Below the pieces are notes generated by a model. It searched no databases and had not been told where the DNA came from. It saw only the letters and a list, made by a program, of their open reading frames with translations. Both the position numbers and the translations under genes were made by a program. Positions 2,738-48,562 of a DNA stretch of 64,000 nucleotides are shown one piece after another; positions within the stretch are counted from its first letter, which is position 1, and each line of letters starts with the position of its first letter. This stretch comes from Phytohabitans maris (lineage in GTDB: Bacteria; Actinomycetota; Actinomycetes; Mycobacteriales; Micromonosporaceae): NCBI RefSeq assembly GCF_031085175.1, contig NZ_JAVHUY010000013.1:62001-126000 (forward strand), in the 5' to 3' direction.

Positions 2738-2765
2738 GCCGCAACCTCGCTTCTCATAGTCGATA

Positions 2766-6435: not shown

Positions 6436-6710
6436 CACTCGGTAGCGACCTGGTCGGCTGCGACCTGGGTGGCCAGGGCCGACGCCAGCCCGGCCACGGT
6501 CGGGTGGTCCCACATTATCGTCGCGTCGACCGAGATGTTGAGATAGTCCTCGATGTCGGCGACTATCGCCAATGCGTACAGCGAGTCCAGGCCGTAGTCG
6601 GCCAGCGGGGCGTTCACATCGATGTCGGACGCTTCCCGCTTCAGGTGCGTGGCAAGGCGCTCGATGAGCCAAGACTGGAACTTGGCCTCGTCGAAGTCGG
6701 TGGACGCCAT
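6435..6710 (-). CDS. Acyl carrier protein
   Basis: A free-standing 91-residue carrier protein. The phosphopantetheine site is the serine of YGLDSL (Ser43), followed by the expected helical pattern and a DHPTVAGLA helix near the end. It should carry the acyl group activated by the AMP ligase of the same operon and present it to the two dehydrogenases and the P450. ATG 6710 has GGGGAGA six bases upstream, which fixes the start. The gene overlaps the 3' end of the acyl-CoA-dehydrogenase-like gene by about 70 bp and is coupled to the P450 by TGATG. Confidence 0.95.
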   Translation of the reverse strand: MASTDFDEAKFQSWLIERLATHLKREASDIDVNAPLADYGLDSLYALAIVADIEDYLNISVDATIMWDHPTVAGLASALATQVAADQVATE

Positions 6711-8452
6711 GGTGTCTCCCCATCGGAACGGAATCGGTGCGTATCAAACGGAAGCAGGCCGAGGCACAGGCCCCGCCGCGAGGTCAGCCGATGGGCGGCC
6801 TCCTCGACGAGGAAGTCCGCCAGTTCGGGGGGCAGGCTCCGCGGCCGGTTCCCAGCCGCGGCGCGCAATCTGTGCAGGACGGCCGCGAGCCAGCGCTGAT
6901 CTTTCGTGAACGTCGTGTGGTCGGTGGCGGTGGCGCGCCGCCAGGTCTCGAAGCACGCGCTCGCCACCAGGACGCGGACATACCTGGTCACCAGGCCGTA
7001 GGCCCGGGGATCCGCCGAGATTCCCAGCGCGGCGACGTCGAGGTCCCGGCAGCTCTCGGTCAGCAGCTGATGATCAGCCGCGAAGTGCTCTGCGATCTCG
7101 GCGACGTCCGGGCGGAGCAGGCCAGGCCGACACGCCGCGATCCCCGACGTCAATGCGCCGGAGAGTCCTTCGCGGCCGGCGGCGCTGACCACGAGGTCGC
7201 CGAATGCCAGCGGCGGCAGGGCCATGCCGGCGACGAACAGCTCGTCGGGGACGATGCCGGGTTCCGGCCAGCTTCGCCGGGCCAGCAACGGAAGCTGGGA
7301 CAGCAGCGAAACCTGGCATGCGGCCCGCGCGGCGTGCCCGAAGCCGGCGGGCTGGATGTCCCGCAGAAGCTTCTGGAAAATGGCGGCCTCGCCGTCACGC
7401 ACGTAGAAATGCGCGCCGAGGACCTCCGACAGCTCATCCATGGCCCGGATGAGGATCTTCGATACGAAGAACTTCACCGCCTGGGCGTAGATGGCTGTCT
7501 CGCCCGGCAGCACATGCAGCGCGCGGGTGGCCACGGACGCGAAGCAGTCGGCGGCGAGCAGATCGGCATATGCACCGGCGATCACCGATCGCACGTGCGG
7601 CATGTCGACGACCGGACCGCCGTAAAGCCGCCGTCCCGTCGAGTGCCGCAGCGCGACTCGCAAGCCGGTGTCCAAGACCCCGCAGAACATCGACACCAGC
7701 GTCGTTCTGGTGATCTGGAACGAGCGCAGTGCCGTCTCCAGCCCGTACCCCGGCCGCCCCATCAGCGACGACTCCGGGACGCGGCAGTCCCGGAATTCGA
7801 TCCCGCCGAGCTGGACGCCGCGCATACCCATGGTGCGGAACCGGGGCAGGTATCCGAAGCGGCTGCGGTCCAGCGCCGCCTTGTCGATCAGCAGCTGCGC
7901 GTGGCTTCGGGCGCCGGGCTGCGCGGCGGTGCGCGCGAAGAGTACGAACGCCTCGCTGCGCTGTATGTTCGTGACCACCTCCTTGCGGCCGTTGAGAGTG
8001 ATCCGCCCGGGCTCGATGCCGGCCCGGCACTCGGTCTCCGCCATGTCGTTGCCGTGGGCCAGTTCGTGATACGCGACGGCGATCCGGCGGCCCGAGCAGA
8101 GCAGGTCGGCGGCGAATCGCTGCTGCTGCGGGCTTCCCGCCAGCCAGATGTTCACGCCGGCGATGAACGAACTCGCGCCGTAGCCGAGCCCGAGACACGG
8201 GTCGCGCCGGTAGACCGATCGCATGATCTCGACCAGGTCGTCGAGACGGTCAAGCCGCCCGCCTAGCCGCGACGGTACGAACTCCGCGTTGAGACCGAAT
8301 TCCGCTAGCGCCTGCTCACCGCGGCCGAACATGGCCTCCGCCTCGTCCGCGGCGAGGATCCGGTTGAAGCCGAGCGGGTTGTCGGGCTCGAACGGGTCGC
8401 CGAACTCGCGCTCGAGGCGGGCGAGTCGCCGCAGGCCGGGGGTCGGGTTCAT
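6641..8452 (-). CDS. Acyl-CoA dehydrogenase-like protein 1 (catalytic Glu apparently lost)
   Basis: A 603-residue acyl-CoA dehydrogenase fold protein: N-terminal helical domain, the ITLNGRKEVVTN and FVLFART mid-domain, LRSFQITRTTLVSMFCGVLD (the R-T-x-x-A helix region) and FQKLLRDIQPAGF at the position of the family RDxxxxxIxEGT. Where the catalytic Glu-Gly-Thr is expected the sequence reads GFGHAA, so the canonical base seems missing. About 190 residues follow the core. It is paired with dehydrogenase-like protein 2 (ATGA overlap at 8449-8452). FadE-type heteromers with one active partner are known, so it may be the non-catalytic half (inference). The last 25 or so residues overlap the ACP gene and look non-native; a frameshift near the 3' end is possible. 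Confidence 0.87.
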   Translation of the reverse strand: MNPTPGLRRLARLEREFGDPFEPDNPLGFNRILAADEAEAMFGRGEQALAEFGLNAEFVPSRLGGRLDRLDDLVEIMRSVYRRDPCLGLGYGASSFIAGVNIWLAGSPQQQRFAADLLCSGRRIAVAYHELAHGNDMAETECRAGIEPGRITLNGRKEVVTNIQRSEAFVLFARTAAQPGARSHAQLLIDKAALDRSRFGYLPRFRTMGMRGVQLGGIEFRDCRVPESSLMGRPGYGLETALRSFQITRTTLVSMFCGVLDTGLRVALRHSTGRRLYGGPVVDMPHVRSVIAGAYADLLAADCFASVATRALHVLPGETAIYAQAVKFFVSKILIRAMDELSEVLGAHFYVRDGEAAIFQKLLRDIQPAGFGHAARAACQVSLLSQLPLLARRSWPEPGIVPDELFVAGMALPPLAFGDLVVSAAGREGLSGALTSGIAACRPGLLRPDVAEIAEHFAADHQLLTESCRDLDVAALGISADPRAYGLVTRYVRVLVASACFETWRRATATDHTTFTKDQRWLAAVLHRLRAAAGNRPRSLPPELADFLVEEAAHRLTSRRGLCLGLLPFDTHRFRSDGETPWRPPTSTRPSSSLGSSSALPRT

Positions 8453-10137
8453 AGCGGTGCCATCCCGGCTCCGAAGAGAGTCGGCACCGGTCCGCCGGCC
8501 GCCGCGAGCAGACGGTCGCCCAGCGCCTCAAAGGCATCACTATGCGCGGCCCCGGCCCTACACGGCAGCTTCTCCTCAATGACTGCGAGTGCACCTGCGA
8601 GCCACAGGCCCTCACCCGGGTCGGCCTGGCCGTGTGTCCACAGATGGCAGGCGGCCGCCGCGGCGAAGCAGAGCTCGAAGTCACGGGCGATATCGAACAC
8701 ATGCTGGGGGACTCTGTGCAGCCCCCAGCTCTGCTCCGCCATGCGAGCCCTTGTGACGTGCAGCGACTCCAGAGCGGCGAATGCCAATGCTGGGACCCAA
8801 TCGGGCAGGTCACCGGCCGCTGCCCGGCGCGCGATAACGCCGCCGTCGGCGCCGAGCCTGTCCACAAGGGAGCACCGACGAGACAGCACAGTCAGGCGGC
8901 CCACATTTGATGGCCGAGTTGGCATCGTGAGGAGGCTGTCGCCTCCGCCCGCGTCCGGAGCCGCTCTGGCGAGTAAGGGGAAGTGCTCTATGAGCTGGCT
9001 TCGACATACCGCTGTGCTGCCGTCGAAGATTGCAACGACGCGATGATCCCGGTCCAGTTTCTGGAACGTCCGGTACGGCTCGTCCGCGGACAGGAAGCCA
9101 CGTAGCCCGAGCACCTCGCCTATCGCGGATATCGCGCCCTGGCAGAGCTCGGGGACGAGCGCCTTAGTGATAGCCGAGACGACGGCCATCTCGGCGGTCG
9201 CGGTTAGCGCAAGCCGCGTGGCGGCGAAGACGATCGCCTCGGCGGCGTACCGCGTGGCCACCGCCCGTCCCAGTTCATAGCGAATGTTCGGGATGTCCGC
9301 CAACCGCTTGCCGTACAGGGTTCGGCGGCGTACGTAATCCGAGCCCAGTGCGATCGCCTGGTCCAATGCGCCGAGGGACAGGCCGCAGCACATGGTCCTG
9401 GTCAGCTGAAGGGCTTTCAGTGTTGTCTCTAGGCCGGTTCCTGGAGCGCCGATCAGAGCTTCGGGAGCGACAGGGGTTGCGGCGAACGCGATTCCGCTGA
9501 TATCCGCTCCGCGGATGCCGTGTGTAGGCACCTTGGGTAGCGTGCGCCACGTGCGCGGATCGGCCTTGCGCTTGTCGAACAGGAACAGGCTGAATCCGCG
9601 CGGACCGCCCTGGGGCCGGGTCCGGGCCAGCACGCAGATCAGGTGCCCGCGAGTGGCGTTATTGATCAGCCACTTCTCGCCGGTCAGGTTCCAGCCGGCC
9701 GATGCCGGCTCGGCGCGGACGCGGCACGCCAGCAGATCCCCGCCGTGGCCGCGCTCGGTGAGTCCCCAGGAGACGACGGCGCCGTCAAGGATCTCCGCGG
9801 CCAGTCGCTCGCGCTGGTCGATGTCGCCGGCCACCCACACACTGACCGCGCCCAGGAATGTCTTGGCGTGTCCGACGGCAATCGTAAGATCCCGGCGGGC
9901 GAGGAGCCGCACGAGCAAGGTCAGATCGAATAGTCCGCCGAGCACGCCGCCGGTGCCGCCGTCGACGTAGAGGCGCGCGGCCCCCACCTCGTCGAGGAGC
10001 CTCGCCGCGTCGGTCGGGAAGGCCTGCCGTTCATCGAGGGTGAGCAGCTCGTCCGGCGATAACGGGCCACCGGGGGCGCTTGCCGCAGCCAAGGCTTCCT
10101 CGACCGTGGCCAACCTTCCCTTGATGCCCGCCGTCAT
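8449..10137 (-). CDS. Acyl-CoA dehydrogenase-like protein 2
   Basis: A 562-residue flavoprotein of the acyl-CoA dehydrogenase family. Segments seen are GLTERGHGGDLLACRVRA, LTGEKWLINNATRGHL, LKALQLTRTMCCGLSLGALDQ, GEVLGLRGFLSAD and FQKLDRDHRVVAIFDGST. At the catalytic position the usual EGT is DGS, a conservative Glu-to-Asp change. It should introduce a double bond into an acyl group, most likely while bound to the ACP of this operon, in the manner of the ramoplanin and enduracidin acyl-chain desaturases (established for those clusters, inferred here). ATG 10137 overlaps the AMP-ligase stop (TGATG). A C-terminal extension parallels that of its partner. Confidence 0.88.
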   Translation of the reverse strand: MTAGIKGRLATVEEALAAASAPGGPLSPDELLTLDERQAFPTDAARLLDEVGAARLYVDGGTGGVLGGLFDLTLLVRLLARRDLTIAVGHAKTFLGAVSVWVAGDIDQRERLAAEILDGAVVSWGLTERGHGGDLLACRVRAEPASAGWNLTGEKWLINNATRGHLICVLARTRPQGGPRGFSLFLFDKRKADPRTWRTLPKVPTHGIRGADISGIAFAATPVAPEALIGAPGTGLETTLKALQLTRTMCCGLSLGALDQAIALGSDYVRRRTLYGKRLADIPNIRYELGRAVATRYAAEAIVFAATRLALTATAEMAVVSAITKALVPELCQGAISAIGEVLGLRGFLSADEPYRTFQKLDRDHRVVAIFDGSTAVCRSQLIEHFPLLARAAPDAGGGDSLLTMPTRPSNVGRLTVLSRRCSLVDRLGADGGVIARRAAAGDLPDWVPALAFAALESLHVTRARMAEQSWGLHRVPQHVFDIARDFELCFAAAAACHLWTHGQADPGEGLWLAGALAVIEEKLPCRAGAAHSDAFEALGDRLLAAAGGPVPTLFGAGMAPL

Positions 10138-11927
10138 CAGGCTTCGATCTTCCGCTCGACGAGCTGGATCGATGGTTCGATCGACGACCACAGGGCGGCG
10201 GTCTGTCCACTAAGGAACGCGTTGCGCACCGCCACCCGCTGTACCTTCCCGCTCGTCGTCCGCTGTACCGTCCCGCGACGAACCAGCTGCAGCCCGCTCA
10301 CGGACACGCCGACCTCCCGCGCCACGGTTTGCTTGATGTCGGCTCCGACGCGGTCGAGGCGGCCCGCCTTCACGCTGGCCCGGATTTCGTGGACCAACAC
10401 CACCAGTTCGGCGCCGTCGACCCCCCGCACGCCGAAGGCCGCGCCGAACAGGCCGCACAGATCGGGAATCTCTTCGCGGGCGACGTGCTCGATGTCCTGT
10501 GGATAGATGTTCCGCCCGCGCACGATTATCAGTTCGCTGATACGACCGGTGACGAACAGCTCACCGCCGTCGAGCGCGGCGAGGTCACCGGTCCGCAGGT
10601 AGCCCGACCGGCCGTCCGCACTCGTACCGTTGAAGACCCGCTCGGTCTCCGCGGCGTTGCGCCAGTAGCCGATTGCGACACTCGTGCCGCGCAGCCACAG
10701 CTCGCCGACCTGCCCGTCTGGGCGCACTTCGCGGGATTCGGGATCGACGACCACAGCCTCCAGGCCTCGCACGGTTCCGCAGCTGACCAGATCGCGGGTG
10801 GCTGGCGTCGGCTCGGTGCCGTCTGCGTCGCACAGCGTTCCCTCGGCCAGCGCCGCCTCGGCGACGCGGCGGACCACCGGGGCGCGGCGGCCGGTTCCCG
10901 AGACGAACACCGTGGCCTCTGCCAGCCCGTAGCACGGGTTGAGTGTCTCGCGGCGCAGTCCGGCCGGCGCAAACCGGTCCGCGAAGGCGGCGAGGGTGTT
11001 CGCCCGCACCGGCTCGGACCCGTTGGCCGCGTGGCGCCAGCGTGACAGGTCGAGGCCGGCAAGCTGCTCCTCGGTTACCGTTCGCGTGCACAGGTCGTAG
11101 GCGAAATTGGGGCCAGCCGACCAGGCGAGGTCGTGCTTGTCCACCAGTTCCAGCCACCGCACCGGACGTTTGAGGAACGCCGTCGGGCTCATGACGGTCA
11201 CCGAACTCCCCGCGTACCACGCCGGCATCATGAGACCGGTCAGGCCCATGTCGTGATAGTGCGGAATCCAGGAACCGAACTTGGTCATCGCGGTCATGCC
11301 GAACGTCGACACCAGGCTGTCCGCGTTCTCGACGATGTTGCCGTGGGTCAGCATCACGCCCTTAGGACTGCCGGTCGAACCCGAGGTGTACTGCAGCAGT
11401 GCCAGGGAGGCCCGGCCCGAGGGGCGCGGCGCGTCAACGGGTGCTTCGTCGGCGAGCGGCATGACCAACAGCGGGATCCGGCCCTGGCCCGAGTTTCCGA
11501 TAAAGGTCTCCACCTCCTCCAGCACCGCCGCGGTGGTAATGATGGCGTTCGGCTCGGCGTCCTGTGCGATCCCGGAAACCCGCCGCTGCTGGTGTTTATA
11601 GCTGCCAGGCAACGGCGACGGGACGGCCACCGCGCCGGCGTACAGGCAGCCCAGGAACGCCGCGGCGAAGTCCAGGCCCTCAGGGAAGAGCAACAGGGCC
11701 CGGTCCCCGGGCGCGCAGACCCGGCAGAGCGCGGCCGCCACCCGCCGCGCCATGAGGTCAAGCTCGCGATAGGACAATTCGGTGGTGCCCGTCCGCGTCC
11801 CGGGCTCGGTGACGTGAGCGACGGCCAAGGCGTCCGGCCGGTCGGCCGCATGCCCCCGTACCGCGTCGGCGAAACAAGCGATCGCTTGGATTCGCGCCGA
11901 TGGCATCGAGGAAGCCGAGGAAGTCAT
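10137..11927 (-). CDS. Fatty acyl-AMP ligase (FAAL-like adenylating enzyme)
   Basis: A 596-residue ANL-superfamily enzyme. The P-loop LLQYTSGSTGSPKG is at residues 177-190, and WIPHYHDMGL, ANGSEPVR, CYGLAEAT and YLRTGDLAAL follow; the C-terminal catalytic lysine is in TSGKVQR (Lys561). HYHDMGL and NGSEPVR are typical of FAALs, which make acyl-adenylates and hand them to a carrier protein rather than to CoA. It therefore probably loads the ACP at 6435-6710. It is coupled to the glycosyltransferase upstream (ATGA at 11924-11927) and to dehydrogenase 2 downstream. The chain length of the acid cannot be told from sequence. Confidence 0.93.
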   Translation of the reverse strand: MTSSASSMPSARIQAIACFADAVRGHAADRPDALAVAHVTEPGTRTGTTELSYRELDLMARRVAAALCRVCAPGDRALLLFPEGLDFAAAFLGCLYAGAVAVPSPLPGSYKHQQRRVSGIAQDAEPNAIITTAAVLEEVETFIGNSGQGRIPLLVMPLADEAPVDAPRPSGRASLALLQYTSGSTGSPKGVMLTHGNIVENADSLVSTFGMTAMTKFGSWIPHYHDMGLTGLMMPAWYAGSSVTVMSPTAFLKRPVRWLELVDKHDLAWSAGPNFAYDLCTRTVTEEQLAGLDLSRWRHAANGSEPVRANTLAAFADRFAPAGLRRETLNPCYGLAEATVFVSGTGRRAPVVRRVAEAALAEGTLCDADGTEPTPATRDLVSCGTVRGLEAVVVDPESREVRPDGQVGELWLRGTSVAIGYWRNAAETERVFNGTSADGRSGYLRTGDLAALDGGELFVTGRISELIIVRGRNIYPQDIEHVAREEIPDLCGLFGAAFGVRGVDGAELVVLVHEIRASVKAGRLDRVGADIKQTVAREVGVSVSGLQLVRRGTVQRTTSGKVQRVAVRNAFLSGQTAALWSSIEPSIQLVERKIEA

Positions 11928-12991
11928 GCGCAGACCGCGAACCCGCGTAGCAAGTCGGCGGCGTTGTGATCACCGGTATAGTCCATCGTCTGGGCAAGGC
12001 GTTCGTAGAACTTGCGCATCACGGGCCCCGCCTGGTCGGGCGACAAGGTGCCCCGACTGAGCGCGATCCGCATGGCCGTCGAGAAGCCGTCCAGATCGAC
12101 CTGGCTTTTCATCATGTAGTACGCGTCGCCGAACCGAGTGAAGATCGAACCACCGCCGGAGGATTTCCGCATGCGATACTTCGAGAACTTGAAATCACTT
12201 CTGGCGAACGCACTGCCCGCCGCGGACATGCGATAGAACGTGTGGCAGTCCTGCGAGACGGGAGCCGCCGGAAACATGCACTGGGCGGCCAACGGCGCGC
12301 GCACCGCTACGGTCGAGGTCAATGTCACGAACCCCGTCTCGGTCCCGATCGTGATCCAGGCGTTTGGGCCTTCGACCGGCTCGCCACGCAGCGCTTTGAT
12401 GCATTCGAGGTACAGCGGTGTGATGGCGTCATCCGGCATGGGATTGCCATCCTCGTCGATGGGGTCGAAGGCCGAGTAGACGAAGTCGACCTCCTTCCGG
12501 CGCGAGAACACAGCGATCGTCTCGGCCACCCGCTCCGGGTGTGGCATGTCGTCGGCGTCCTGAAAGAAGATGAAATCGGCACCGGCGTCGAGGCACCACC
12601 GGGTGGCCAGATTGCGGCACGGGCCGGGGCCGATCCGCCTCGGCATTTCGAAAAGCGTGAACCTGCCGTCCCGCCGCAGGCGGTCGGCGAGCTCGTCGGA
12701 AAGCCTGGATTCCGGGCCGTCGACCACGACGGCCGCCCGCCAGCCCGGCACGGTCTGGGCGGTGAGGCAGTCGACCAGCTCAGCGAGAAATCGCTCGTGA
12801 AGCTCGGTCGCCCGAAAATATGGGATGACGAAACCTGCATCTGACTGGAACGCCACAAGTCCTCCTCGCCAGCTCATTCCGTTCTTGAGTGCAACGATCA
12901 GCCTTATCCAATAGGCCCCCTCGGCGCCTGCCGCAATCATGTCGGTCGGATTCGATGCCGCCGACATTCGCTCTCGGTGCCCATCCATCAC
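11924..12991 (-). CDS. Glycosyltransferase family 2 (GT-A fold)
   Basis: A 355-residue protein with the GT-A signature: VIPYFRATELHERFLAEL, VVVDGP, GPGPCRNLATRW and FFQDADDMPHPERV, where DADD is the metal/nucleotide-sugar DxD site. It transfers an activated sugar; the acceptor may be the cluster product. It is the first gene of the long leftward operon. The start is uncertain: GTG 12991 and ATG 12988 lack a good ribosome site, while ATG 12967 follows a weak CGAGAG. About 620 bp of intergenic DNA separates it from the divergent exporter, where the operon promoter should lie. Confidence 0.88.
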   Translation of the reverse strand: MMDGHRERMSAASNPTDMIAAGAEGAYWIRLIVALKNGMSWRGGLVAFQSDAGFVIPYFRATELHERFLAELVDCLTAQTVPGWRAAVVVDGPESRLSDELADRLRRDGRFTLFEMPRRIGPGPCRNLATRWCLDAGADFIFFQDADDMPHPERVAETIAVFSRRKEVDFVYSAFDPIDEDGNPMPDDAITPLYLECIKALRGEPVEGPNAWITIGTETGFVTLTSTVAVRAPLAAQCMFPAAPVSQDCHTFYRMSAAGSAFARSDFKFSKYRMRKSSGGGSIFTRFGDAYYMMKSQVDLDGFSTAMRIALSRGTLSPDQAGPVMRKFYERLAQTMDYTGDHNAADLLRGFAVCA

Positions 12992-17715: not shown

Positions 17716-18141
17716 CTACATCTCGTCACGTATCCTCATCCAGAGTCTGCCGAGCATGTTTTGGCCGGAGCCGTCTGCGCCTTCGCCCCAGAAGTAGTCA
17801 GTCGGTGAATCTTCGATAATGTCTTCGTGTCCACTCTTTTGCAGAGCTTCTTGAGCCTCCGTGTGCTGTGCCAACTTGGCTCGCAGAATCTCTTCCAGAA
17901 CGGCCACTTTCTTGCTTCCCCAGTCGGGGTCTTTTGCGGCCCTATACGTTCCGTTGGCTAGCAGTTTGGCTTGGAGTGGACTGCGGGCGTTGCGAATCTC
18001 CTCTTGGCCGGCAGGATCTGTGCACTTTGTGGCCTGATAGGCATGCTCGGAGGTTGGGTAGAGTTTTCCTTTGAACTCGACGGCGTGCGGGGAGAAATTG
18101 TTGAGGACGTAGAACTCGGGCGTGTAGAACCTGATTGGCAT
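17716..18141 (-). CDS. NADAR-family N-glycosidase
   Basis: A 141-residue NADAR (YbiA-like) protein: FYTPEFYVLNNFSPHAVEF at the N-terminus, YPTSEHAYQATK (catalytic region) and DSPTDYFWGEGADGSGQNMLGRLWM at the C-terminus, matching the family throughout. NADAR proteins cleave N-glycosidic bonds in riboflavin intermediates or remove ADP-ribose from guanine, and some act with DarT-type toxins or in phage defence (known). It starts 3 bp after the XRE-TPR gene, so the two form one operon. The XRE partner suggests regulated, stress-linked use (inference). No DarT gene is visible nearby. Confidence 0.93.
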   Translation of the reverse strand: MPIRFYTPEFYVLNNFSPHAVEFKGKLYPTSEHAYQATKCTDPAGQEEIRNARSPLQAKLLANGTYRAAKDPDWGSKKVAVLEEILRAKLAQHTEAQEALQKSGHEDIIEDSPTDYFWGEGADGSGQNMLGRLWMRIRDEM

Positions 18142-28214: not shown

Positions 28215-28307
28215 GCCCCCGTCGTACCGGTAGGTACGCACCCGAAAAGCAAGTCCTCCTAAACCGGGGGTAGCTGGAAAGCGTGGGTTCGAATCCCACC
28301 GGGGGCA
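28215..28307 (+). tRNA. tRNA-like sequence with non-canonical middle
   Basis: The 3' part is a perfect tRNA end: T-stem GTGGG, loop TTCGAAT, CCCAC, then CGGGGGC plus discriminator A at 28307. GCCCCCG at 28215-28221 pairs fully with the 3' acceptor strand. A 5-bp D-like stem CGTAC/GTACG with a 6-nt loop (28223-28238) and a small GCT-GGAA-AGC variable hairpin are present. No standard 5-bp/7-nt anticodon arm can be formed in the 34 or so bases between; the CTCCTAA there is the tRNA-Arg(CCT) loop sequence, but its flanks do not pair. It could be a pseudo-tRNA, an attachment-site remnant or a functional tRNA-like RNA. Confidence 0.6.
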
Positions 28308-29068: not shown

Positions 29069-30076
29069 ATGACCATGCTCGGAATGCCTGCGGTTCCGGC
29101 GGCGCCCACCCCACGTTCCGCCGGGCCGATAGCGTTCACTGCCGGACATCACTTCACCGTTACCAGTACCGCGACTGTTGATGAGCTGGCCGAGGCAGCG
29201 ACGGTGCCGCTATCGGTCATCTTGCAGATCACCAAGCGGTGCAACTTCGACTGTTCGTTCTGCTCCGAGACGTTGCAGCTCCCGGACCCGACACTGGCCG
29301 AGTTGGACACCATCCGCGCCAACCTGACCGGTACTTCGCGGGTGTTCCTGTCTGGTGGGGAACCGTTGCTGCGTAAGGACTTCGGCGACATCGTAGGCAT
29401 GTATGCCGGTCAGTTCATCGTGGGCATCCCGACCAACGCCACCCGGGGCCTAGAGCACGCAGGGGCAATGGTGGGCAAGGTCGCCTTCGTCAACGTCGGT
29501 CTGGAGGGGCCACGAGCGACCACGAACCGGGTTCGCGGGGACTACGACCAGGTGATAGCCGGCATCCGTGCGTTCCTGGACGCTGGGTTGCCGCTGTCGC
29601 TGTCGGCGGTGGTGTACCGGTCGACGTTGCACGCGCTGCCGTTCACCTACCAGATCGCGGACGTGATCGGCGCCGGCAAGTTGAAGCTGATCCTGCCGCT
29701 GCGTAAGGGCAACGCCCTGGACCTGGCCGAGCACGAGTTCATCAGCCTGGAGGAGGCCGGTCAGACCTTCGAACGGCTGACCGAGGCGCGGGCGGTCCAT
29801 GACTGGCGGCCGGCACTGCGGATGACGACGTGGACAGAGCAGACCGAGGGGCACATGATCCTGGTGGAGGTAACCGGCAGAGCCAGCGCCTGGCCCGTGT
29901 ACGACGCCCCGGACCTGCTCGAACCGTTGGGCAACCTGCTGACCGAGCCGATCACCGAGATTTGGAGGCGGTACCGGTTCAAGCGCAACCACTTCGCCAA
30001 GTACCTCGGCGCCAGCATCCGCACCGTCGGCAACGCCGACACCAGGGCAGGGCTGGGAGGGCACGCCCGTGCGTGA
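29069..30076 (+). CDS. Radical SAM protein
   Basis: A 335-residue radical SAM enzyme. The cluster motif CNFDCSFC (Cys58, Cys62, Cys65) binds a [4Fe-4S] cluster that cleaves SAM; FLSGGEPLL is the SAM-binding GGE motif. The end of the protein (GNLLTEPITEIWRRYRF) resembles the tail of SPASM proteins but has no cysteines after the first motif, so only one cluster is predicted. ATG 29069 follows AAGGAGA. Its stop overlaps the next gene by 8 bp. The substrate is unknown; the neighbouring kinase, Nudix and exonuclease-like genes suggest a nucleotide or nucleic acid (inference). Confidence 0.92.
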   Translation: MTMLGMPAVPAAPTPRSAGPIAFTAGHHFTVTSTATVDELAEAATVPLSVILQITKRCNFDCSFCSETLQLPDPTLAELDTIRANLTGTSRVFLSGGEPLLRKDFGDIVGMYAGQFIVGIPTNATRGLEHAGAMVGKVAFVNVGLEGPRATTNRVRGDYDQVIAGIRAFLDAGLPLSLSAVVYRSTLHALPFTYQIADVIGAGKLKLILPLRKGNALDLAEHEFISLEEAGQTFERLTEARAVHDWRPALRMTTWTEQTEGHMILVEVTGRASAWPVYDAPDLLEPLGNLLTEPITEIWRRYRFKRNHFAKYLGASIRTVGNADTRAGLGGHARA

Positions 30077-30827
30077 CTACACGAACCTGCAATGGCCCGA
30101 GGCGCCGTTCGGGGCCGAGCAACGACCGTTCGGGCAGCACCACGACATGTTGGCCGCGTTCGCGGTCGACTGGACCAGCTTGGACGCCGGGCTTCTGCCG
30201 GTCGCAGCGGCCACCGTCTACCTGCGGGTACGCCGGCACGGCACCGCTGCCCAGGCCGGCGAACAGAGCCTGTCGATCGGGTTCCGGGCCACCGTCATCG
30301 AAGAGCCTGCCGAGGCGCCACACCTGTTGACGCTGACCGACCGGGCACTGACCCGCGCCCGCCGGCACGCGGTGATCCTGGCCGGACACCACCTCGACAA
30401 CGACCTGACCTGCATGGGCGCGCTATCCACGACACCGCTACGCGGCGCGGCCGGTGTCCTCGCCGCGTGGGCCAACCGCACCGTGAAGGAACGCGGCGTC
30501 GCACTCATGATCGATACCGCGGCCGAGGCCCGCACCACCGGCGTCGAGCTGGACATGCCACTCGATCCCGTCCCCGAATCGGTGCCGGACTGTCCCGGAT
30601 GCGCCGCGAGGTTGGCCAGGTGCGTACTCGCGCGGTGCCTGGCGGTCGGGTTGACAGCGGCCGTGCACGCCGGCCGCTACCGCTGGGAGGGCACCTTTCA
30701 CGTCGGGGACGCGATCGACCGGGCCGCGTGGGACCTGCTGTCCGCCAACTTCGACGACGCCGGGCACCAGCACCGACACCAGACGACCCACCGTGCGGCT
30801 ACCCCGCCGCGACGTAACCGCCGCTAA
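30069..30827 (+). CDS. DEDD-exonuclease-like protein A
   Basis: A 252-residue protein from GTG 30069, overlapping the radical SAM gene. Three segments line up with protein B of the same operon and with Exo motifs of DnaQ-type nucleases: FAVDWTSLD (Exo I-like), AVILAGHHLDNDLTCM (Exo II-like G-H-x(4)-D) and VALMIDTAAEA (the segment before Exo III). The Exo I second acid (Glu) is absent, so activity is doubtful. A CPGC...C cluster at residues 177-190 could bind metal. It is probably a diverged, perhaps non-catalytic, nuclease-fold partner (inference). Confidence 0.6.
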   Translation: MRDYTNLQWPEAPFGAEQRPFGQHHDMLAAFAVDWTSLDAGLLPVAAATVYLRVRRHGTAAQAGEQSLSIGFRATVIEEPAEAPHLLTLTDRALTRARRHAVILAGHHLDNDLTCMGALSTTPLRGAAGVLAAWANRTVKERGVALMIDTAAEARTTGVELDMPLDPVPESVPDCPGCAARLARCVLARCLAVGLTAAVHAGRYRWEGTFHVGDAIDRAAWDLLSANFDDAGHQHRHQTTHRAATPPRRNRR

Positions 30828-30831
30828 CCTC

Positions 30832-30875
30832 GGTGGCCGTCGCCCAATGCTCATCGGGGTCGGGCGACGGCCACC
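30832..30875. terminator. Perfect 14-bp inverted repeat inside the operon
   Basis: GGTGGCCGTCGCCC (30832-30845) pairs exactly with GGGCGACGGCCACC (30862-30875) around a 16-nt loop. It lies between the two exonuclease-like genes without a T-tract, so it may be an attenuator or RNA-processing site rather than a full stop. Confidence 0.6.
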
Positions 30876-30916
30876 ACGGGCACGACAACAACGTGCCGGA
30901 GAAAGGGATCGAGTCC

Positions 30917-31705
30917 GTGCATGTGATCAGTGACCTCGGCGGGCCGGGCACCGTGCCGGACCGGCCGCCCGGCACGCGGCTGGTGGCATCGGTCGATGTG
31001 GAGTGGAGCAAGAACTACCGGGTCAAGAACGGCAACCGGGCATTCTGCTACTCCGTCGTGTGGCTGGCCGTACCGCTCGCAGAGGAACCGCCGGCCATCA
31101 CGGCGGCGCTGCCGTTCTGGTCCACCAGCGTCTACCTCGACCGGGACGAGGAACGGCCGGAGCTGGTGGCGCTCGCCGCGGCCGACATCGGCGCCGCGTG
31201 CGAGGCCGCGGACCTGCTGGTCGGACACCAACTGTGCAGCGACCTCGCGGTCCTGGCCGCCAACGCTGGCCCGGGTGTACCGGCTGTGGTGACGGCGGCG
31301 CGGCAGGCGTGGCATGAACGGCGCGACGCCACAGCCGGTCAGCGGGTGATCGACACCCGGTTCGATGCCGGGCATGTGCTAGCCAACGCTTCCCGGCGGC
31401 TCGTTGACGTGTGCGACGAACTCGACCTGGACGTGACCCAACCAGAGCTGGCCCGCAAGTCGATGACCGCGCTGCACCGGGACTGGCTAGAACGGGCCGA
31501 CGTAGAGGCGCGTGAGCGGATCACGGTGCTGAACCTGCGGCACAGCCTGTCCACCGCGTACGTGGCGCTGCGGGCGGCCGGGCACCTGACCTGGCCGGCA
31601 CCGCTGAACCTGAACGCCAGCATCGCCGCGCACTGGGCCGGGCGGGTCCAATGGCTGAACACCCAGACCTTTCAAGCCTTGGCGAACCGAACCGAGTACC
31701 CATGA
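30917..31705 (+). CDS. DEDD-exonuclease-like protein B
   Basis: A 262-residue protein. It has VASVDVEWSKN (Exo I, D-x-E), LLVGHQLCSDLAVL (Exo II, G-H-x(4)-D), QRVIDTRFDAGHVL and LNLRHSLSTAYVAL in the Exo III place, where the last catalytic Asp of HxxxxD appears to be missing. It is therefore close to DnaQ/RNase T-type 3'-5' exonucleases, but perhaps impaired. GTG 30917 follows AGAAAGGGA; the frame is open from 30833, but that extension overlaps the hairpin. Its stop overlaps the kinase start (ATGA at 31702). It appears paralogous to protein A. Confidence 0.68.
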   Translation: MHVISDLGGPGTVPDRPPGTRLVASVDVEWSKNYRVKNGNRAFCYSVVWLAVPLAEEPPAITAALPFWSTSVYLDRDEERPELVALAAADIGAACEAADLLVGHQLCSDLAVLAANAGPGVPAVVTAARQAWHERRDATAGQRVIDTRFDAGHVLANASRRLVDVCDELDLDVTQPELARKSMTALHRDWLERADVEARERITVLNLRHSLSTAYVALRAAGHLTWPAPLNLNASIAAHWAGRVQWLNTQTFQALANRTEYP

Positions 31706-32313
31706 GCGTGCGCGGCTGCCTGCTGGTGGGCATCGAGGGCACCCACGCATCCGGCAAGACCACCCTCGTGCACGCGCTGACCGCGCACTACCGCGAGCGT
31801 GGCCTGCTGGTCGACTGCACCGGCGAGCCGGCTCGAACCAGTCCGTTCATCGAAGAGATCGTGATCCACGGCAAAGGTGTGTTCGACTTACCCACCGAGA
31901 TCGACCTGTTCGCCATGCAGCTCGCGGCCACCCTGCGCGCGGCCCGACACCACCGGCTGTTGGTCTGCGACAAGACGGTGGTCAACGTGCTCGCCTACGC
32001 CCGGATGGTCCTGTCCGCCCCGCCGGGCAGCCACAACGCGCAGGTGCTTGCCGCGATGGCCGGGTTCTGCCGAGCGTGGGCACCGGACGCCTACGATGCC
32101 GTGTTCTACCTGCCGGACCACTACCAGCATCCGGCCGACCCGATGCGGGCCAAGGTCGCCCACCTGCAAGCCGAAACCGGCCAGGCGGTCAGCGACACCT
32201 GCGCCGACGTCGGGCTGCCGCTGATCGATGTACCCGGCGGGCTCGACACGGCTGGCCGGGTGGCCTGGATCGCTCGGCGGGTCGACCCGCTGCTGACCGA
32301 GGTGACCGGCTAG
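31702..32313 (+). CDS. Thymidylate-kinase-like P-loop nucleotide kinase
   Basis: A 203-residue P-loop kinase. The Walker A is GTHASGKT (residues 13-20) in the setting LLVGIEG, as in thymidylate kinases; EPARTSPFIEEI resembles their REPGGT...-EEI segment, and LLVCDKTVVNVLAYA sits in the DR(Y/W) position. It probably phosphorylates a nucleoside monophosphate, possibly a modified one made by the radical SAM enzyme (inference). ATGA coupling ties it to exonuclease-like protein B, and the Nudix gene follows 9 bp later. Confidence 0.83.
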   Translation: MSVRGCLLVGIEGTHASGKTTLVHALTAHYRERGLLVDCTGEPARTSPFIEEIVIHGKGVFDLPTEIDLFAMQLAATLRAARHHRLLVCDKTVVNVLAYARMVLSAPPGSHNAQVLAAMAGFCRAWAPDAYDAVFYLPDHYQHPADPMRAKVAHLQAETGQAVSDTCADVGLPLIDVPGGLDTAGRVAWIARRVDPLLTEVTG

Positions 32314-32322
32314 CCTGCGGTC

Positions 32323-32772
32323 GTGACCGCTGCCGCCTTGCACCCGGTTGACGTGCTGCTCCTGCTCACCGACGCAGACCACCTGCTGCTAGCGCTGCGG
32401 GAAGGGACCGGCTACGCAGATGGGCTGTGGAACCTGCCCTCCGGCAAGCTGGAGCTAGGCGAGGACGCCGTGAGCGCGGTCATTAGGGAAGCGCGGGAAG
32501 AAGTCGGGGTGCGGCTCCGCCCTAACGAACTGCGCATGGTCGCCACCGTGCACCACCGCAACACGGCCGGGCTCGCCCGCGTCGGGCTGGCGTTCGCCGT
32601 GGCCTTCGACCCGGCCCGCCACGGCGAGCCGGTCAATGCCGAGCCGCACAAGTGCGCCAAGATCGAATGGGTTCCGGCCGACATGCTGCCGTCGAACACC
32701 TACCCGTACACGGCCGCCTGCGTGCGCGCCTACCGCCAAGGCGAACCATTCGCGCTCAGCGGCTGGTCATAG
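32323..32772 (+). CDS. Nudix hydrolase (MutT-like)
   Basis: A 149-residue Nudix protein with a perfect box, G-KLELG-E-DAVSAVI-REAREEVGV, at residues 41-63 (metal-binding REAREE). The fold begins VDVLLLLTDADHLLLALREG and has WNLPSGK before the box. Such enzymes cleave nucleoside diphosphate derivatives, often damaged or modified NTPs. GTG 32323 is the start, 9 bp after the kinase, so it is the last clear gene of the radical SAM operon. Substrate unknown. Confidence 0.93.
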   Translation: MTAAALHPVDVLLLLTDADHLLLALREGTGYADGLWNLPSGKLELGEDAVSAVIREAREEVGVRLRPNELRMVATVHHRNTAGLARVGLAFAVAFDPARHGEPVNAEPHKCAKIEWVPADMLPSNTYPYTAACVRAYRQGEPFALSGWS

Positions 32773-33552: not shown

Positions 33553-34526
33553 TCCTGGCCGGCGGCGCGGTCGGTCAGTGGGTCGATCATCCAGTGCGGG
33601 TGTTTGTTCTTCAGGTACCGGGATGCCAGCAGCGTGAACACGGCCCGTTTGACTCTGGGTAGCTTGGCGCGGGCCGCGTCGGCGGACACGCCGATCTCGT
33701 GGGCGGCCTCGCCGATGGTGCGGCCGAACAGGCTGCACAGCGCGACCAGGGCGGCGTCCTCGGCGGTGACCTTCGGGCGCCGGTCGCTGCGGCTGGGCTT
33801 GACGTGCGCGGTCGCGCCGACGAGCTCCCGCAGCACCGGGGGCAGCTCGTCATCGGCGGGCGGGCCGTCGTCGCTGTCGTCGACGGGCGGCTCCAGCTCG
33901 GGTTCGGGTTGTCCGGGTAGCGGCGGCCAGTCGACCTCGCGGTTTGCCCACCATGCTTGTTTGGCGCGGTAGACGGTCCGCCAGATGATCCGATCCCCGA
34001 TGCGCTCGTCCTCCGGGCTGACCTTGAACAGTTCGGCCAGGAACCCCACGGCGAGGTGTTGCTGGACCTGTCGTTTGTTCTCGTAGTCGCCGTTCTTGCC
34101 GCCGGGCGTCAGGAAGTGCGCCTTCTCGATGAGCCGCAACGCGGCGACGCCGACCACGTAGGTGTACCACCGGCCGCGTTGCTCGATCGCGTTGGTGATC
34201 AGGTAGCGCCAGACCGCATCGCGGACCGGTAGGGGCACGGTCTGCTGGTCCAGCAACGCCCGAAGGGTGTCCATGGGCAGCAACACATCGGCCGGCTGCA
34301 CGCCGAGCATCCGGCCGGGCACGCCGATGTCGGTCATCGCTTCGGCTTGCTCGCGGAGGTACTGCAACGGCAGCGGGGTGTAGAGCTGCCATCGGGCGCG
34401 GCGTGTCGTGCCGTTGTCTGTGGGTGTGAGGTCGTCGTCGTCCGGGGGCGCGAGGTCGTCGTCCGGTTGGTCCACGGCAGGGTGTCCTTCCAGCGGCGCG
34501 GGTGTACGCGTGGCTGTGGTGGACAC
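33549..34526 (-). CDS. Sigma-region-4-like regulator of the transfer region
   Basis: A 325-residue protein read from GTG 34526 (the frame is open to 34880 but is Pro-rich and unconserved-looking there). The N-terminus is acidic (DQPDDDLAPPDDDDL). The middle is helical (YLREQAEAMTDIGVPGRML, IEQRGRWYTYVVGVAALRLIEKAHFL). Residues near the end (VTAEDAALVALCSLFGRTIGEAAHEIGVSADAARAKLPRVKRAVF) look like a sigma-70 region-4 HTH. It faces away from the transfer genes across a palindromic operator, so it may regulate transfer. Function is inferred. Confidence 0.6.
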   Translation of the reverse strand: MSTTATRTPAPLEGHPAVDQPDDDLAPPDDDDLTPTDNGTTRRARWQLYTPLPLQYLREQAEAMTDIGVPGRMLGVQPADVLLPMDTLRALLDQQTVPLPVRDAVWRYLITNAIEQRGRWYTYVVGVAALRLIEKAHFLTPGGKNGDYENKRQVQQHLAVGFLAELFKVSPEDERIGDRIIWRTVYRAKQAWWANREVDWPPLPGQPEPELEPPVDDSDDGPPADDELPPVLRELVGATAHVKPSRSDRRPKVTAEDAALVALCSLFGRTIGEAAHEIGVSADAARAKLPRVKRAVFTLLASRYLKNKHPHWMIDPLTDRAAGQD

Positions 34527-44762: not shown

Positions 44763-46028
44763 CTACAGGGAAGCGGGGGCCTTCTTGTACCAGCCGGTGA
44801 TCACGCCCACCAGGTGGACGATGTTCTGGGTGCGCATGATCGGTGCGGCGGCGTTGGGCTCGAAGTCGCTGTTCGCCTCGGTGGTGCGCCAGATGCTGGT
44901 CTCGGTGACCGGCGCGGCCATGTGTGGGTCGAGGCGCTTGAAGAACGCGGTGATGTCGTCGAGTTCCGCCGGGTTGTCGCCTGCGCGCAGCTCGCGGAAT
45001 ACGCCACCGAGGACGCGCAGCATGCCCACCGAGCCGAGCAGCGAGGTGCGGCGCAGCTTCTGTGACATGGTCAGCTCGTCGGGCTTGCGCTCCGCCTCGG
45101 AGTCCTCCTCGGTCACGGCGGCGAGGTCCGTGAAGGCGTTGGAGATGACGTCCAGGAAGTCCTTGACCTGCTCGATGACCTCGCCGTCGGTCAGGGTCTG
45201 CTCGGCCTTTTTGCTGATCCGGCCACCGGCACCGGCGATGACGGCGCGGGTGATGTCGGCGACGTGCTTGGCGCCCATGAGGTTGGGGTTCTTGAGCGTC
45301 ATGCGGTCCTGCTCGGCGTCGACCCGCCCCTTGAGTAGCGGGTGGTCGATGACGTCGGACAGGGTGCGGTTGGCGACCTTGTAGCTGTCGAAGCGGGCGC
45401 GGACGGCGCTGCTGATGCCCTTGGCGTTGTCCGCGACGTCAACGAACATCTGCTGGGCCTTGATCGGGTCCGGCTCCACGTAGATGTCCAGCCCGACGTA
45501 CTCGGCCTTGAGCCGGTTCATCTGACCGACGAGCTTCTCGCGCTCGGCCTGAAGCTTCGCGGCCTTGTCCGGGCTGACCTTGCGGGCCATCTCACGGTCG
45601 ACGGCGGAGATGGCGTCGGTGATGCGCTGCTTCTCGATGGAGACGCCGAGCACGCGGTGCTGGCCGTCGATAGTGCGCAGGGAGGAGATGCCACCGATCG
45701 CCCACGGGACAGTGAGGTACCCGACCGCTCCGTGTTCGTCCACCTTCTCGAAGGTGCAGCCGCCGCCGTCGCGGGCCAGGAGCGCCGGGGCGACCCAGTC
45801 CATCTTGGTGTCGAGGTACTCGCCGAAGTGCTTGGCGTGGAGGCGGTCGACCTTGCGGTTGTCCTTGTCGGGTTCTCCCGGGTTGGGGACGGGCAGGATC
45901 GTCGGCAGGTCGAGCAGAGGCACGCGCGTGCTGTAGACGGCGCGTCCTCCCTGCATGGTCTTGATCGCCAGGTAGGTGCTGGAGTCCTGCGGCTTCGACA
46001 GACGCAGCGGGTCGACGTTGATGCTCAC
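44763..46028 (-). CDS. DndB-like DGQHR-domain protein
   Basis: A 421-residue protein with the DGQHR signature (SLRTIDGQHRVLGV) plus VPLLDLPTILP, FVDVADNAKGISSAVRARFD and NLMGAKHVADITRAVI, as in DndB, the regulator of DNA phosphorothioation, and related ParB-fold proteins. No dndA/C/D/E genes are nearby, so it is an orphan and may act as a regulator or DNA-binding ATPase-like protein in an unrelated system. GTG 46028 lies five bases after a perfect AGGAGGT; the open frame to 46082 is therefore not used. AT-rich promoter DNA precedes it. Confidence 0.82.
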   Translation of the reverse strand: MSINVDPLRLSKPQDSSTYLAIKTMQGGRAVYSTRVPLLDLPTILPVPNPGEPDKDNRKVDRLHAKHFGEYLDTKMDWVAPALLARDGGGCTFEKVDEHGAVGYLTVPWAIGGISSLRTIDGQHRVLGVSIEKQRITDAISAVDREMARKVSPDKAAKLQAEREKLVGQMNRLKAEYVGLDIYVEPDPIKAQQMFVDVADNAKGISSAVRARFDSYKVANRTLSDVIDHPLLKGRVDAEQDRMTLKNPNLMGAKHVADITRAVIAGAGGRISKKAEQTLTDGEVIEQVKDFLDVISNAFTDLAAVTEEDSEAERKPDELTMSQKLRRTSLLGSVGMLRVLGGVFRELRAGDNPAELDDITAFFKRLDPHMAAPVTETSIWRTTEANSDFEPNAAAPIMRTQNIVHLVGVITGWYKKAPASL

Positions 46029-46891: not shown

Positions 46892-48529
46892 TCACGCCAC
46901 GGCGGTGGTCAGTGCCTCGGCGGGAAGGCTGCCCGAGCCGAGCGTGTGCTTAGGGGCGATGTCTACCGTGGTCGGGTCGAAGCCACGGCCACGCCGTCCG
47001 GACGGCAGGATCGTCACCGTGCACAGCCGGTCGATGAACAGCCGCTGGTCGGCCAACCCGAGATCGGCCCACGCCTGTACCGGGTCCGAGGCGTTGACCA
47101 CAGTGGCGAGCGGATCGGACGTCGCGGTGGCGTTCAACAGCTCGTCGATCTCGGTGATGCGGGCGTTGCCGCGTTTGGTAGCGGCGATCACCTGGGCGCG
47201 GGTCTTCAACCCGAGCACCTCGTCCTCGGCCATCAGCTCCAGCCGCTGGCGGATCGCCGTCCGTTCGGCCCGCAACCCTTCCGCGTCGACCTCCGGCGGC
47301 GGGGCGGCCAGTAGCTCGTAGGCGCGGGGGTGGGTCAACGCGTACAGCACGTGCCCGAACACCAGCCGGTCCACCTTCGCCACGTTGCGGGTCAGGTGGC
47401 TGTGGTCCTTGCACTTGTACCTCGGCTCCCGCCCACCCAACGTGACCTGACAGGTCACCGGCTTGACCCCATCGGCGTCGGTGTCGGTGCCCAGCGGAGT
47501 GCAGATCCCGCACCGATAGATGGTGGTGCCGTGCCAGCGCGGCGCCGCGCCCGGCCCGGTCCGCCGGGACGGGTCAGTCAGCAGATCCCGTACCGCGTAG
47601 AACACCTCTGGGGACACGATCGGCTTCCAGGGCGCCTTGACTCCTTCGATGATCTGCTTCTTGTGGACCATGAAGCCGGCGTTGCGGGGGCGCAGCAGGA
47701 TGTCCCGCAACGTCTGGGCCGACCAGTCCGCCCCGGTCACCGTCGGCACCTCCTGCCGCTCGCGCAGCTCGGCGGCCAGCGCGCGCAGGCTGATCCCCTG
47801 CAACAGCCGGTGCGAGCTGTCGGCGATCACGTCGATCTCGTAGTCGATGGTGGTGATCCCGGACTTGCAGTCCCGTCCGCCATGCCATGCACAGACGAGG
47901 TCTTCGGGCATGGCGTTGTCCGGGACGTCAGGTGCGCCGAGGCAGAACCCGAACGGACGGCGGCCGCCGCCGAACTTGCCGTTACGGGCCTGCCGCTCCC
48001 GCCACATCGACACCCGCCGCGCCGTGTCCCTCGACGCCTTGTTCGCCACCAACACCCGGATCTCGGCGTCGAAGTTGTCCTTGCCCTTCTCCATATGCAA
48101 CGAGTCGGTACACGACTCCACCACGATGCTGTGTGGGGCGTGCTCCACCACGTCGATCAGGTCCTGCAAGTCCTTCGGGTCGCGGAAGGCCCGGTCCAGG
48201 TCCAGACACAGCAGCGCGTTCGCCCGCCCGGCCCACAGGTCGCCGAGGGCTTCGCGCAGGTCCGGGCGGAACACCCGGTACTCCCGGCGCCCGTCCGGCA
48301 GCGTGATCTTCCGGCGCTTGTACGCGGACAGCCGCGGGTTCTTGATCACCTTGTAGACCGCCCAACCCAGCAGCGCGGCCCGGTCCCGCATCCGCTGGAT
48401 CTGATCCTCCAACGACTGCGGAATGCCCTCGTCCGTCAGGTCCACGTCTTCACGCTTGTCCGACAGGCGGGCCAACAGGATCGCCTTGCACTGGTCGGGG
48501 ATGCCGAGCGGGGAAGCGGTTGCGGTCAT
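46892..48529 (-). CDS. Large serine recombinase (integrase)
   Basis: A 545-residue large serine recombinase. The catalytic domain starts AILLARLSDKRED with nucleophile Ser23, followed by LLCLDLDRAFRDPKDLQDLI. The recombinase domain holds FGGGRRPFGF, WSAQTLRDILLRPRNAGFMVHKKQ, and a zinc ribbon YRCGIC...CQV...YKCKDHSH precedes a coiled coil (ERTAIRQRLELMAEDEV). It integrates and, with a directionality factor, excises the element. ATG 48529 is preferred over the open frame to 48592 because the domain begins there and the extension would cross the host junction at about 48550. It is the last gene of the element. Confidence 0.93.
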   Translation of the reverse strand: MTATASPLGIPDQCKAILLARLSDKREDVDLTDEGIPQSLEDQIQRMRDRAALLGWAVYKVIKNPRLSAYKRRKITLPDGRREYRVFRPDLREALGDLWAGRANALLCLDLDRAFRDPKDLQDLIDVVEHAPHSIVVESCTDSLHMEKGKDNFDAEIRVLVANKASRDTARRVSMWRERQARNGKFGGGRRPFGFCLGAPDVPDNAMPEDLVCAWHGGRDCKSGITTIDYEIDVIADSSHRLLQGISLRALAAELRERQEVPTVTGADWSAQTLRDILLRPRNAGFMVHKKQIIEGVKAPWKPIVSPEVFYAVRDLLTDPSRRTGPGAAPRWHGTTIYRCGICTPLGTDTDADGVKPVTCQVTLGGREPRYKCKDHSHLTRNVAKVDRLVFGHVLYALTHPRAYELLAAPPPEVDAEGLRAERTAIRQRLELMAEDEVLGLKTRAQVIAATKRGNARITEIDELLNATATSDPLATVVNASDPVQAWADLGLADQRLFIDRLCTVTILPSGRRGRGFDPTTVDIAPKHTLGSGSLPAEALTTAVA

Positions 48530-48562
48530 GCATCCATTATGTGCTAGAATCGGATATGCGGG
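48530..48562. other. Probable attachment-site junction (att)
   Basis: Between the recombinase start and the GGG codon of the interrupted Walker A (48560-48562) lie only about 30 bp. Left of about 48558 the host-gene reading gives RIC instead of the expected Gly-Gly-Val. The crossover therefore lies at or just before GGGAAGAC. Large serine integrases place their gene next to the att site (known); the exact core dinucleotide needs the empty site. Confidence 0.7.

Follow-up and report, generated by a model that had tools for sequence, protein, structure and literature searches.

A mobile, conserved five-gene cassette of Phytohabitans maris that joins a radical SAM enzyme to nucleotide-kinase-like and Nudix proteins

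The window analysed here is a 64,000-nucleotide stretch of a Phytohabitans maris contig, and its positions 29069-32772 hold a cassette of five packed genes that all lie on the plus strand. They encode, in order, a radical S-adenosylmethionine (SAM) enzyme, hereafter rSAM, two DEDD-fold proteins, a kinase and a Nudix hydrolase:

29069..30076, plus strand: radical SAM enzyme (rSAM, P0001), 335 amino acids (aa), CxxxCxxC motif, Radical_SAM 55.1 bits (cut-off 29.5)
30069..30827, plus strand: DEDD-fold homologue A (P0002), 252 aa, N-terminal TNLxWPxxPFGxxxRPF motif
30917..31705, plus strand: DEDD-fold protein B (P0003), 262 aa, fold predicted from a model
31702..32313, plus strand: P-loop nucleotide-kinase-like protein (P0004), 203 aa, AAA_28 44 bits (cut-off 27)
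32323..32772, plus strand: Nudix hydrolase (P0005), 149 aa, NUDIX 62.4 bits (cut-off 21.1)

The genes for rSAM and P0002 overlap by 8 bp, those for P0003 and the kinase share an ATGA overlap, and 9 bp separate the kinase from the Nudix gene. This tight packing had been described in an earlier note made from the sequence alone, and the coordinates agree with it. Left unmentioned there was an 89-bp gap between P0002 and P0003, which an alternative GTG start at 30833 would almost close. The three enzyme families named in that note (radical SAM, kinase and Nudix) are likewise confirmed by Pfam cut-offs. The cassette is real, mobile and conserved, and no description of it was found in the literature searched; a title- and abstract-level search of one open library names it nowhere, and it may be described elsewhere. 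PADLOC-DB 2.0.0 recognizes its proteins as no known anti-phage system and gives partial or weak matches at most.

A scan of genome contigs with rSAM yields 48 loci. There are 21 loci (L052-L072) at which the match is partial, 23-38% identical and accompanied by no matched partner gene, and the remaining 27 (L025-L051) are the close loci. Eleven of these carry all five genes in frames of near-full length (L025-L031, L034, L035, L041, L044). Another nine carry all but P0003 (L032, L033, L036, L037, L039, L040, L042, L043, L048), two of them damaged. Within this second group L032 and L033 are near-identical, the kinase frame of L036 is odd, the Nudix gene of L040 lies 4.5 kb away, and the rSAM gene of L048 is broken. 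The locus L046 has the kinase, rSAM and one DEDD protein, while L045 and L047 have rSAM with a P0003-type gene, the rSAM frame of L047 beginning downstream of the cysteine motif. All five queries match in L050, where rSAM and P0002 are broken, and L049 and L051 are remnants. Damage is evident in L048, L049 and L050; frames that resemble transposases by eye break up P0002 in L050 and sit past rSAM in L048.

The earlier note had proposed a neighbourhood search with rSAM and the kinase as joint queries, and the two genes do co-occur, in the same order across loci. Among 200 genomes of the host family, rSAM (E <= 1e-30) is found in eight and the kinase (E <= 1e-15) in eight, and seven genomes hold both. 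The unshared genomes are G113, with a partial kinase, and G057, with a 35% identical rSAM. Fisher's test for this co-occurrence gives p = 2.8e-11, or 6.1e-10 minus the window's genome, ignoring shared ancestry in both cases. There are also eight family genomes with P0003 (the window's, five with near-full and two with short matches), and rSAM, P0002, the kinase and Nudix lie beside P0003 in all five near-full cases; G190 and G117 are also represented among the 27 close loci. The ratio of nonsynonymous to synonymous substitution rates (dN/dS) is below 1 in 30 of 30 comparisons from six locus pairs. It ranges from 0.087 to 0.524 and tends to be highest in P0002 and in phage pairs, the values being rough and some dS high. 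Because the order recurs in many loci and dN/dS is below 1 throughout, the five-gene arrangement stands above chance. These observations support the five genes as one system that is conserved as a unit.

The cassette is nevertheless sporadic: of 394 genomes of the class, 11 have an rSAM at E <= 1e-40, which in one case is of the distant type. A P0003 profile at E 1e-6 finds only the window's own copy among 396 genomes of the phylum. In a plasmid collection P0003 has no match and rSAM matches 281 records, all below 60% identity and, among the 20 listed, mostly PqqE or other maturases. A tree of 32 rSAM rows (without duplicates, L033, L047-L051 and L089) groups mainly by host family, with Frankiaceae, Streptomycetaceae plus viral loci, and Micromonosporaceae; genera inside Micromonosporaceae seem mixed, with moderate support.

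Judged from sequence, the window copy sits on an integrative conjugative-type element for which an integrase, transfer genes and both ends are identified. Homology of three congeners to the window begins at 48560, just beyond a serine recombinase gene, and the second junction lies at about 38913 of G000:C5, 23 kb left of the window. The integrated element is thus about 71.6 kb long, and locating both ends bears out the claim in the earlier note that the cassette is carried on mobile DNA. The element interrupts a regulatory NTPase-like gene, one with many paralogous matches in the genus, at its GGVGKTT-coding stretch. TrwB-like, relaxase and Replic_Relax genes score above cut-offs, and a NikA-like gene scores below. 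The recombinase and other features in the window are:

46892-48529: serine recombinase (Pfam Recombinase, Resolvase)
44763-46028, minus strand: DndB-family gene inside the element (Pfam 1.1e-26)
17716-18141, minus strand: NADAR-domain gene (Pfam 5.8e-28), of a family linked to ADP-ribose chemistry
752-12856, minus strand: biosynthesis-like gene run on the same element, judged from predicted protein starts

The cassette is also found in phages. In Streptomyces phage Gilgamesh it forms gp39-gp43 (L085, 8022-11740), three of the five being annotated as hypothetical proteins, and a tyrosine integrase gene lies seven genes upstream. Gilgamesh, with two entries, is the sole phage in 50,697 phage records that rSAM, P0002, P0003 or the kinase matches at the thresholds applied. 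Separate scans of IMG/VR with rSAM and with the kinase each give five loci, on the identical five contigs, and all five queries match in 6/6 viral loci when Gilgamesh is included. The genomic locus L044 is prophage-like and shares 76-82% DNA identity with viral loci over 3.7-4.8 kb.

Three features that the earlier note placed in front of the cassette do not belong to the unit. The XRE-DUF5753 gene is real by Pfam. The KOW-like protein gives only weak matches (Tudor_3 0.022, L21e 0.0075), and the tRNA-like stretch at 28238-28307 on the plus strand is degenerate. Its T-arm and acceptor stem are good, it reaches 24.1 bits where the gathering score is 29, and its matches in the rest of the genome are all short. 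ARAGORN calls no tRNA at 28238-28307; in 27 relatives it makes a single call, which falls within an XRE-type frame in L074, although it misses the window's stretch too. In nine aligned loci the upstream DNA is conserved only from the ribosome-binding site onward, and the genes flanking the cassette vary between loci. We therefore rejected all three as cassette parts and regard them as mere neighbours. Past the cassette, ARAGORN calls a tRNA-Asp at 33847-33924 on the plus strand; it lies inside an opposite-strand frame, has no gathering-level Rfam match and is probably spurious. Near another copy, that of Frankia in L036, QueE- and QueD-like genes of the 7-deazaguanine pathway were recognized by eye about 4 kb away (2882-3984).

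In rSAM the cysteines of the CxxxCxxC motif (C58, C62 and C65), a motif common to most radical SAM enzymes, are invariant in an alignment of 25 rows. So are the basic residues R149, R156, R184, K204, K206, K213 and R251, which we count in favour of a nucleotide substrate. Structure predictions cover two of the five proteins, rSAM and P0003. The rSAM model has a predicted local distance difference test (pLDDT) score of 82, and its Foldseek matches are SkfB, SuiB, viperins, PqqE, AbmM and BlsE, with E-values from 1.5e-11 to 4.9e-9. Since these values lie close together, the substrate cannot be read from the fold.

The earlier note likened the cassette to viperin-kinase pairs in logic and not in homology, and this wording proved apt. 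Prokaryotic viperins (pVip, SAND) pair with a nucleotide kinase. They share with the cassette a CxxxCxxC rSAM core, the lack of an auxiliary cluster and the adjoining kinase, with Foldseek template modelling (TM) scores of about 0.5-0.7. However, rSAM itself was rejected as a viperin because it scores 26.7 bits against the curated 180-bit cut-off of NCBIfam NF038283. The pVip models of PADLOC match only its N-terminal residues 49-157, at 36.7 bits, and the cassette adds the DEDD pair and Nudix. A viperin family search of 296 genomes of the phylum gives none above the cut-off, and hence no comparison set within the phylum.

Another reading of the same matches is that rSAM has a peptide, protein or cofactor as its target and that the kinase and Nudix only manage linked nucleotides. 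SkfB, SuiB and PqqE are indeed among its best fold or sequence matches. However, among 421 open reading frames (ORFs) of 20-120 aa located within 1.5 kb of 11 loci (the window and ten relatives of the Micromonosporaceae family), no conserved precursor-peptide ORF was found, and the largest ORF group covers 4/11 loci at differing positions. With no small ORF conserved beyond these four, a substrate typical of ribosomally synthesized and post-translationally modified peptides is not in sight. None of the auxiliary-cluster cysteines of SPASM enzymes is seen in the C-terminal part of the alignment, read by eye. The steady company of nucleotide enzymes, with MazG replacing Nudix in sister loci, also argues against this reading, which we consider distinctly unlikely.

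The kinase keeps its P-loop and nearly always a DKT motif, and the solved relatives that score best for it are thymidylate kinases. It passes AAA_28 and stays under the thymidylate-kinase cut-offs (Pfam, 18.7 of 27 bits; NCBIfam, 19.8 of 83.25). The Nudix box is intact, with G41, E47, R55, E56, E59 and E60 invariant in 21 rows. In PADLOC the Nudix protein matches PDC-S07 at 41.3 bits, the kinase weakly matches mad8 and PifA, and the DEDD pair matches nothing.

The main argument for a nucleotide pathway comes from exchange of the pyrophosphohydrolase. MazG and Nudix proteins have unrelated folds, and both cleave nucleoside triphosphates (NTPs) to monophosphates (NMPs) and pyrophosphate. L046 has a MazG gene (Pfam 3.1e-7) directly after its kinase-rSAM-DEDD genes and facing them, and no Nudix gene is matched there. 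The two loci examined for a more distant rSAM type, about 35% identical, are L080 and L169. In L080 (10056-12779; rSAM 33-36%) the genes are MazG-like, thymidylate-kinase-like, HhH-GPD-like and rSAM, and in L169 (2603-5768, from a congener of the window's host) they are an AAA_28 kinase, thymidylate-kinase-like, rSAM and an opposite-strand MazG-like gene. The MazG-like protein of L080 shares 47% identity with its counterpart in L046 and 48% with the one in L169. Against viral contigs the sister rSAM of L169 gives 12 loci, whose matches cover part of the query at 24-46% identity. Elsewhere, Dictyobacter vulcani has a different Nudix gene (1.4e-18) after rSAM-DEDD, Streptomyces S-350 has MazG past Nudix, and Kitasatospora has a second Nudix gene. 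The exchange of Nudix for MazG beside rSAM and the kinase, in three loci, argues that the pathway handles nucleotides. The earlier proposal that the cassette produces a modified nucleotide is thereby supported in part, through its nucleotide theme.

The combination of a pyrophosphohydrolase with a modifying enzyme and a nucleotide kinase also calls to mind hypermodification of DNA or RNA, in which an altered deoxynucleotide would be built into the phage's or element's own DNA so that it escapes restriction. Phage T4 modifies its deoxynucleotides in this way with a dCTPase, a dCMP hydroxymethylase and a deoxynucleoside monophosphate kinase, likewise within one pathway; the cassette has rSAM in place of the hydroxymethylase. 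Carriage by phages and by an element would suit such a use, as would the HhH-GPD glycosylase-like gene between the kinase and rSAM in L080, which is under both curated cut-offs (TIGR03252, 97 of 136.5 bits). However, this gene is seen in one locus only. No polymerase or replication gene recurs in the flanks listed, judged by eye and from shared clusters, and in Gilgamesh the cassette has integrase and regulator genes on one side and the portal gene on the other. We therefore think hypermodification unlikely.

Neither P0002 nor P0003 matches a Pfam family at E up to 1. The P0003 model (pLDDT 94.5) has ten Foldseek matches at E <= 0.001, nine to chains of DNA polymerase alpha or primosome and one to the exonuclease ExnV1. 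The E-values are 2.3e-5 for DNA polymerase alpha, 7.2e-4 for ExnV1 and 2.1e-3 for RNase T, with TREX later. The aligned part of polymerase alpha is presumably its exonuclease-like domain, and the query TM-scores are modest, at most 0.54 among the matches listed. P0002 is homologous to P0003 (hhalign probability 95.7%, E 9.9e-9).

As in DEDD 3'-5' exonucleases such as RNase T, TREX and polymerase exonuclease domains, the model of P0003 combines the fold with a D-x-E (D27 and E29, both within the first strand segment), the D of the second motif (D109, at a helix start) and an H in the last long helix (H209). This placing of the motifs in both proteins is our own assignment. The last acid is missing in P0003 and the first in P0002, so that, on the modelled exonuclease fold, neither protein has the four acids of the DEDD motif. 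In P0002 the first catalytic acid is lost in 17/17 rows, the second is kept in 5/17 and the third position is D in 14/17. The loss of the first acid in every row indicates that P0002 is probably a pseudo-enzyme. The exonuclease folds announced in the earlier note hold up, through the model of P0003 and its homologue P0002. Catalysis by the surveillance pair it envisaged is doubtful, and P0003 is missing in 9/27 close loci.

The match of P0003 to RNase T, behind polymerase alpha and ExnV1, might indicate an RNA-targeting system wherein the DEDD pair and rSAM act on tRNA or another RNA. However, the tRNA-like stretch is below threshold, the upstream DNA is unconserved, and the kinase and Nudix would be left unexplained. 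We regard this as very unlikely.

Two further rSAM matches, BlsE and AbmM, point in another direction. BlsE is titled a blasticidin S biosynthesis enzyme, a cytosylglucuronate decarboxylase. Perhaps the cassette makes a diffusible nucleoside natural product, an antibiotic or signal, for which the kinase and Nudix would serve in resistance or tailoring. The hosts are mostly actinobacteria, and biosynthesis-like genes, recognized by eye, lie on the same element as the window copy. However, unlike in antibiotic pathways, no transporter or tailoring gene recurs in the flanks listed, as judged by eye, and both phage carriage and variable flanks argue against such a product. We give this possibility little credence.

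The explanation that we consider best, at roughly even chances, sees the cassette as a mobile pathway for modifying nucleotides. Its product or charge is probably an altered nucleotide, which may be directed against viruses. In this pathway Nudix (MazG in sister loci) would cleave a (deoxy)nucleoside triphosphate to the monophosphate, from which rSAM would abstract a hydrogen and so alter the nucleotide. The kinase would then phosphorylate the altered monophosphate, and the host nucleoside-diphosphate kinase would finish the triphosphate. Nudix or MazG may also destroy surplus product. The DEDD pair, with one near-intact and one dead subunit, would probably bind nucleic-acid 3' ends or nucleotides as a complex and might remove or detect the altered nucleotide. 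The cassette would likely benefit its carrier by interfering with the replication of phages or rival elements.

Several observations weigh against this pathway. The top structural matches of rSAM are the peptide enzymes SkfB and SuiB, narrowly ahead of viperins, and its highest family scores are for MoaA and PqqE, both far under cut-offs. P0003 lacks the fourth catalytic acid of DEDD enzymes, with no acid shortly past H209. The MazG calls of L080 (0.024) and L169 (0.0088) are each below the Pfam cut-off when taken alone. Besides the nine close loci without P0003, L038 has no kinase match and neither Dictyobacter locus has one, one such contig being only 3.2 kb long. Finally, enrichment of defence genes around the cassette is not significant.

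Known defence systems do lie near three loci: type I-C CRISPR-Cas (L025), DISARM (L050) and an Avs2 gene that adjoins Nudix (L076; PADLOC 6e-292, NCBIfam below cut-off). The flank set comprised the 149 nearest genes of at least 100 aa at 27 loci, namely 23 close contig loci plus L074, L075, L076 and L081, and left out the window, L033, L045, L047 and L051. At E 1e-20 these genes match 32 PADLOC models, with one gene each among the 25 of 32 listed; the models listed include Avs2, Cas3, DrmB, DrmC, PDC-S66 and LmuB, the last two not traced to a gene. The control held 130 of 156 genes, from 17 of 20 evenly spread stretches of four carrier genomes, and gave one model, mad3, in two genes. Defence neighbours from an identified system thus occur at 3/27 loci versus 0/17 control regions, or at most 2 counting mad3 (Fisher, 0.27 and 1.0), and in 4/149 genes versus 0 or 2 of 130 (Fisher, 0.13 and 0.69). 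A defence-island enrichment that was apparent by eye is therefore rejected against these controls.

An anti-phage use is plausible from the mobility of the cassette, as phage and element cargo, and from the company of Avs2, DISARM and CRISPR-Cas at some loci. In its fullest form, the proposal would be a new class of mobile immune pathway wherein a non-viperin rSAM, a kinase and an interchangeable Nudix or MazG make a nucleotide, and a half-dead DEDD heterodimer senses or proofreads it at 3' ends. This full version is tentative, and we hold it to be rather unlikely.

If the cassette is read correctly here, radical SAM enzymes would lead to antiviral or modified nucleotides by more routes than one in nature, and this route would bring its own clean-up enzyme together with a fold of the proofreading type. 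A new enzyme reaction on nucleotides and candidate chain-terminating compounds would follow as well, and one could test whether phages take such pathways on board to keep rivals out. Through the interchange of Nudix and MazG, the question of the substrate can be tested directly.

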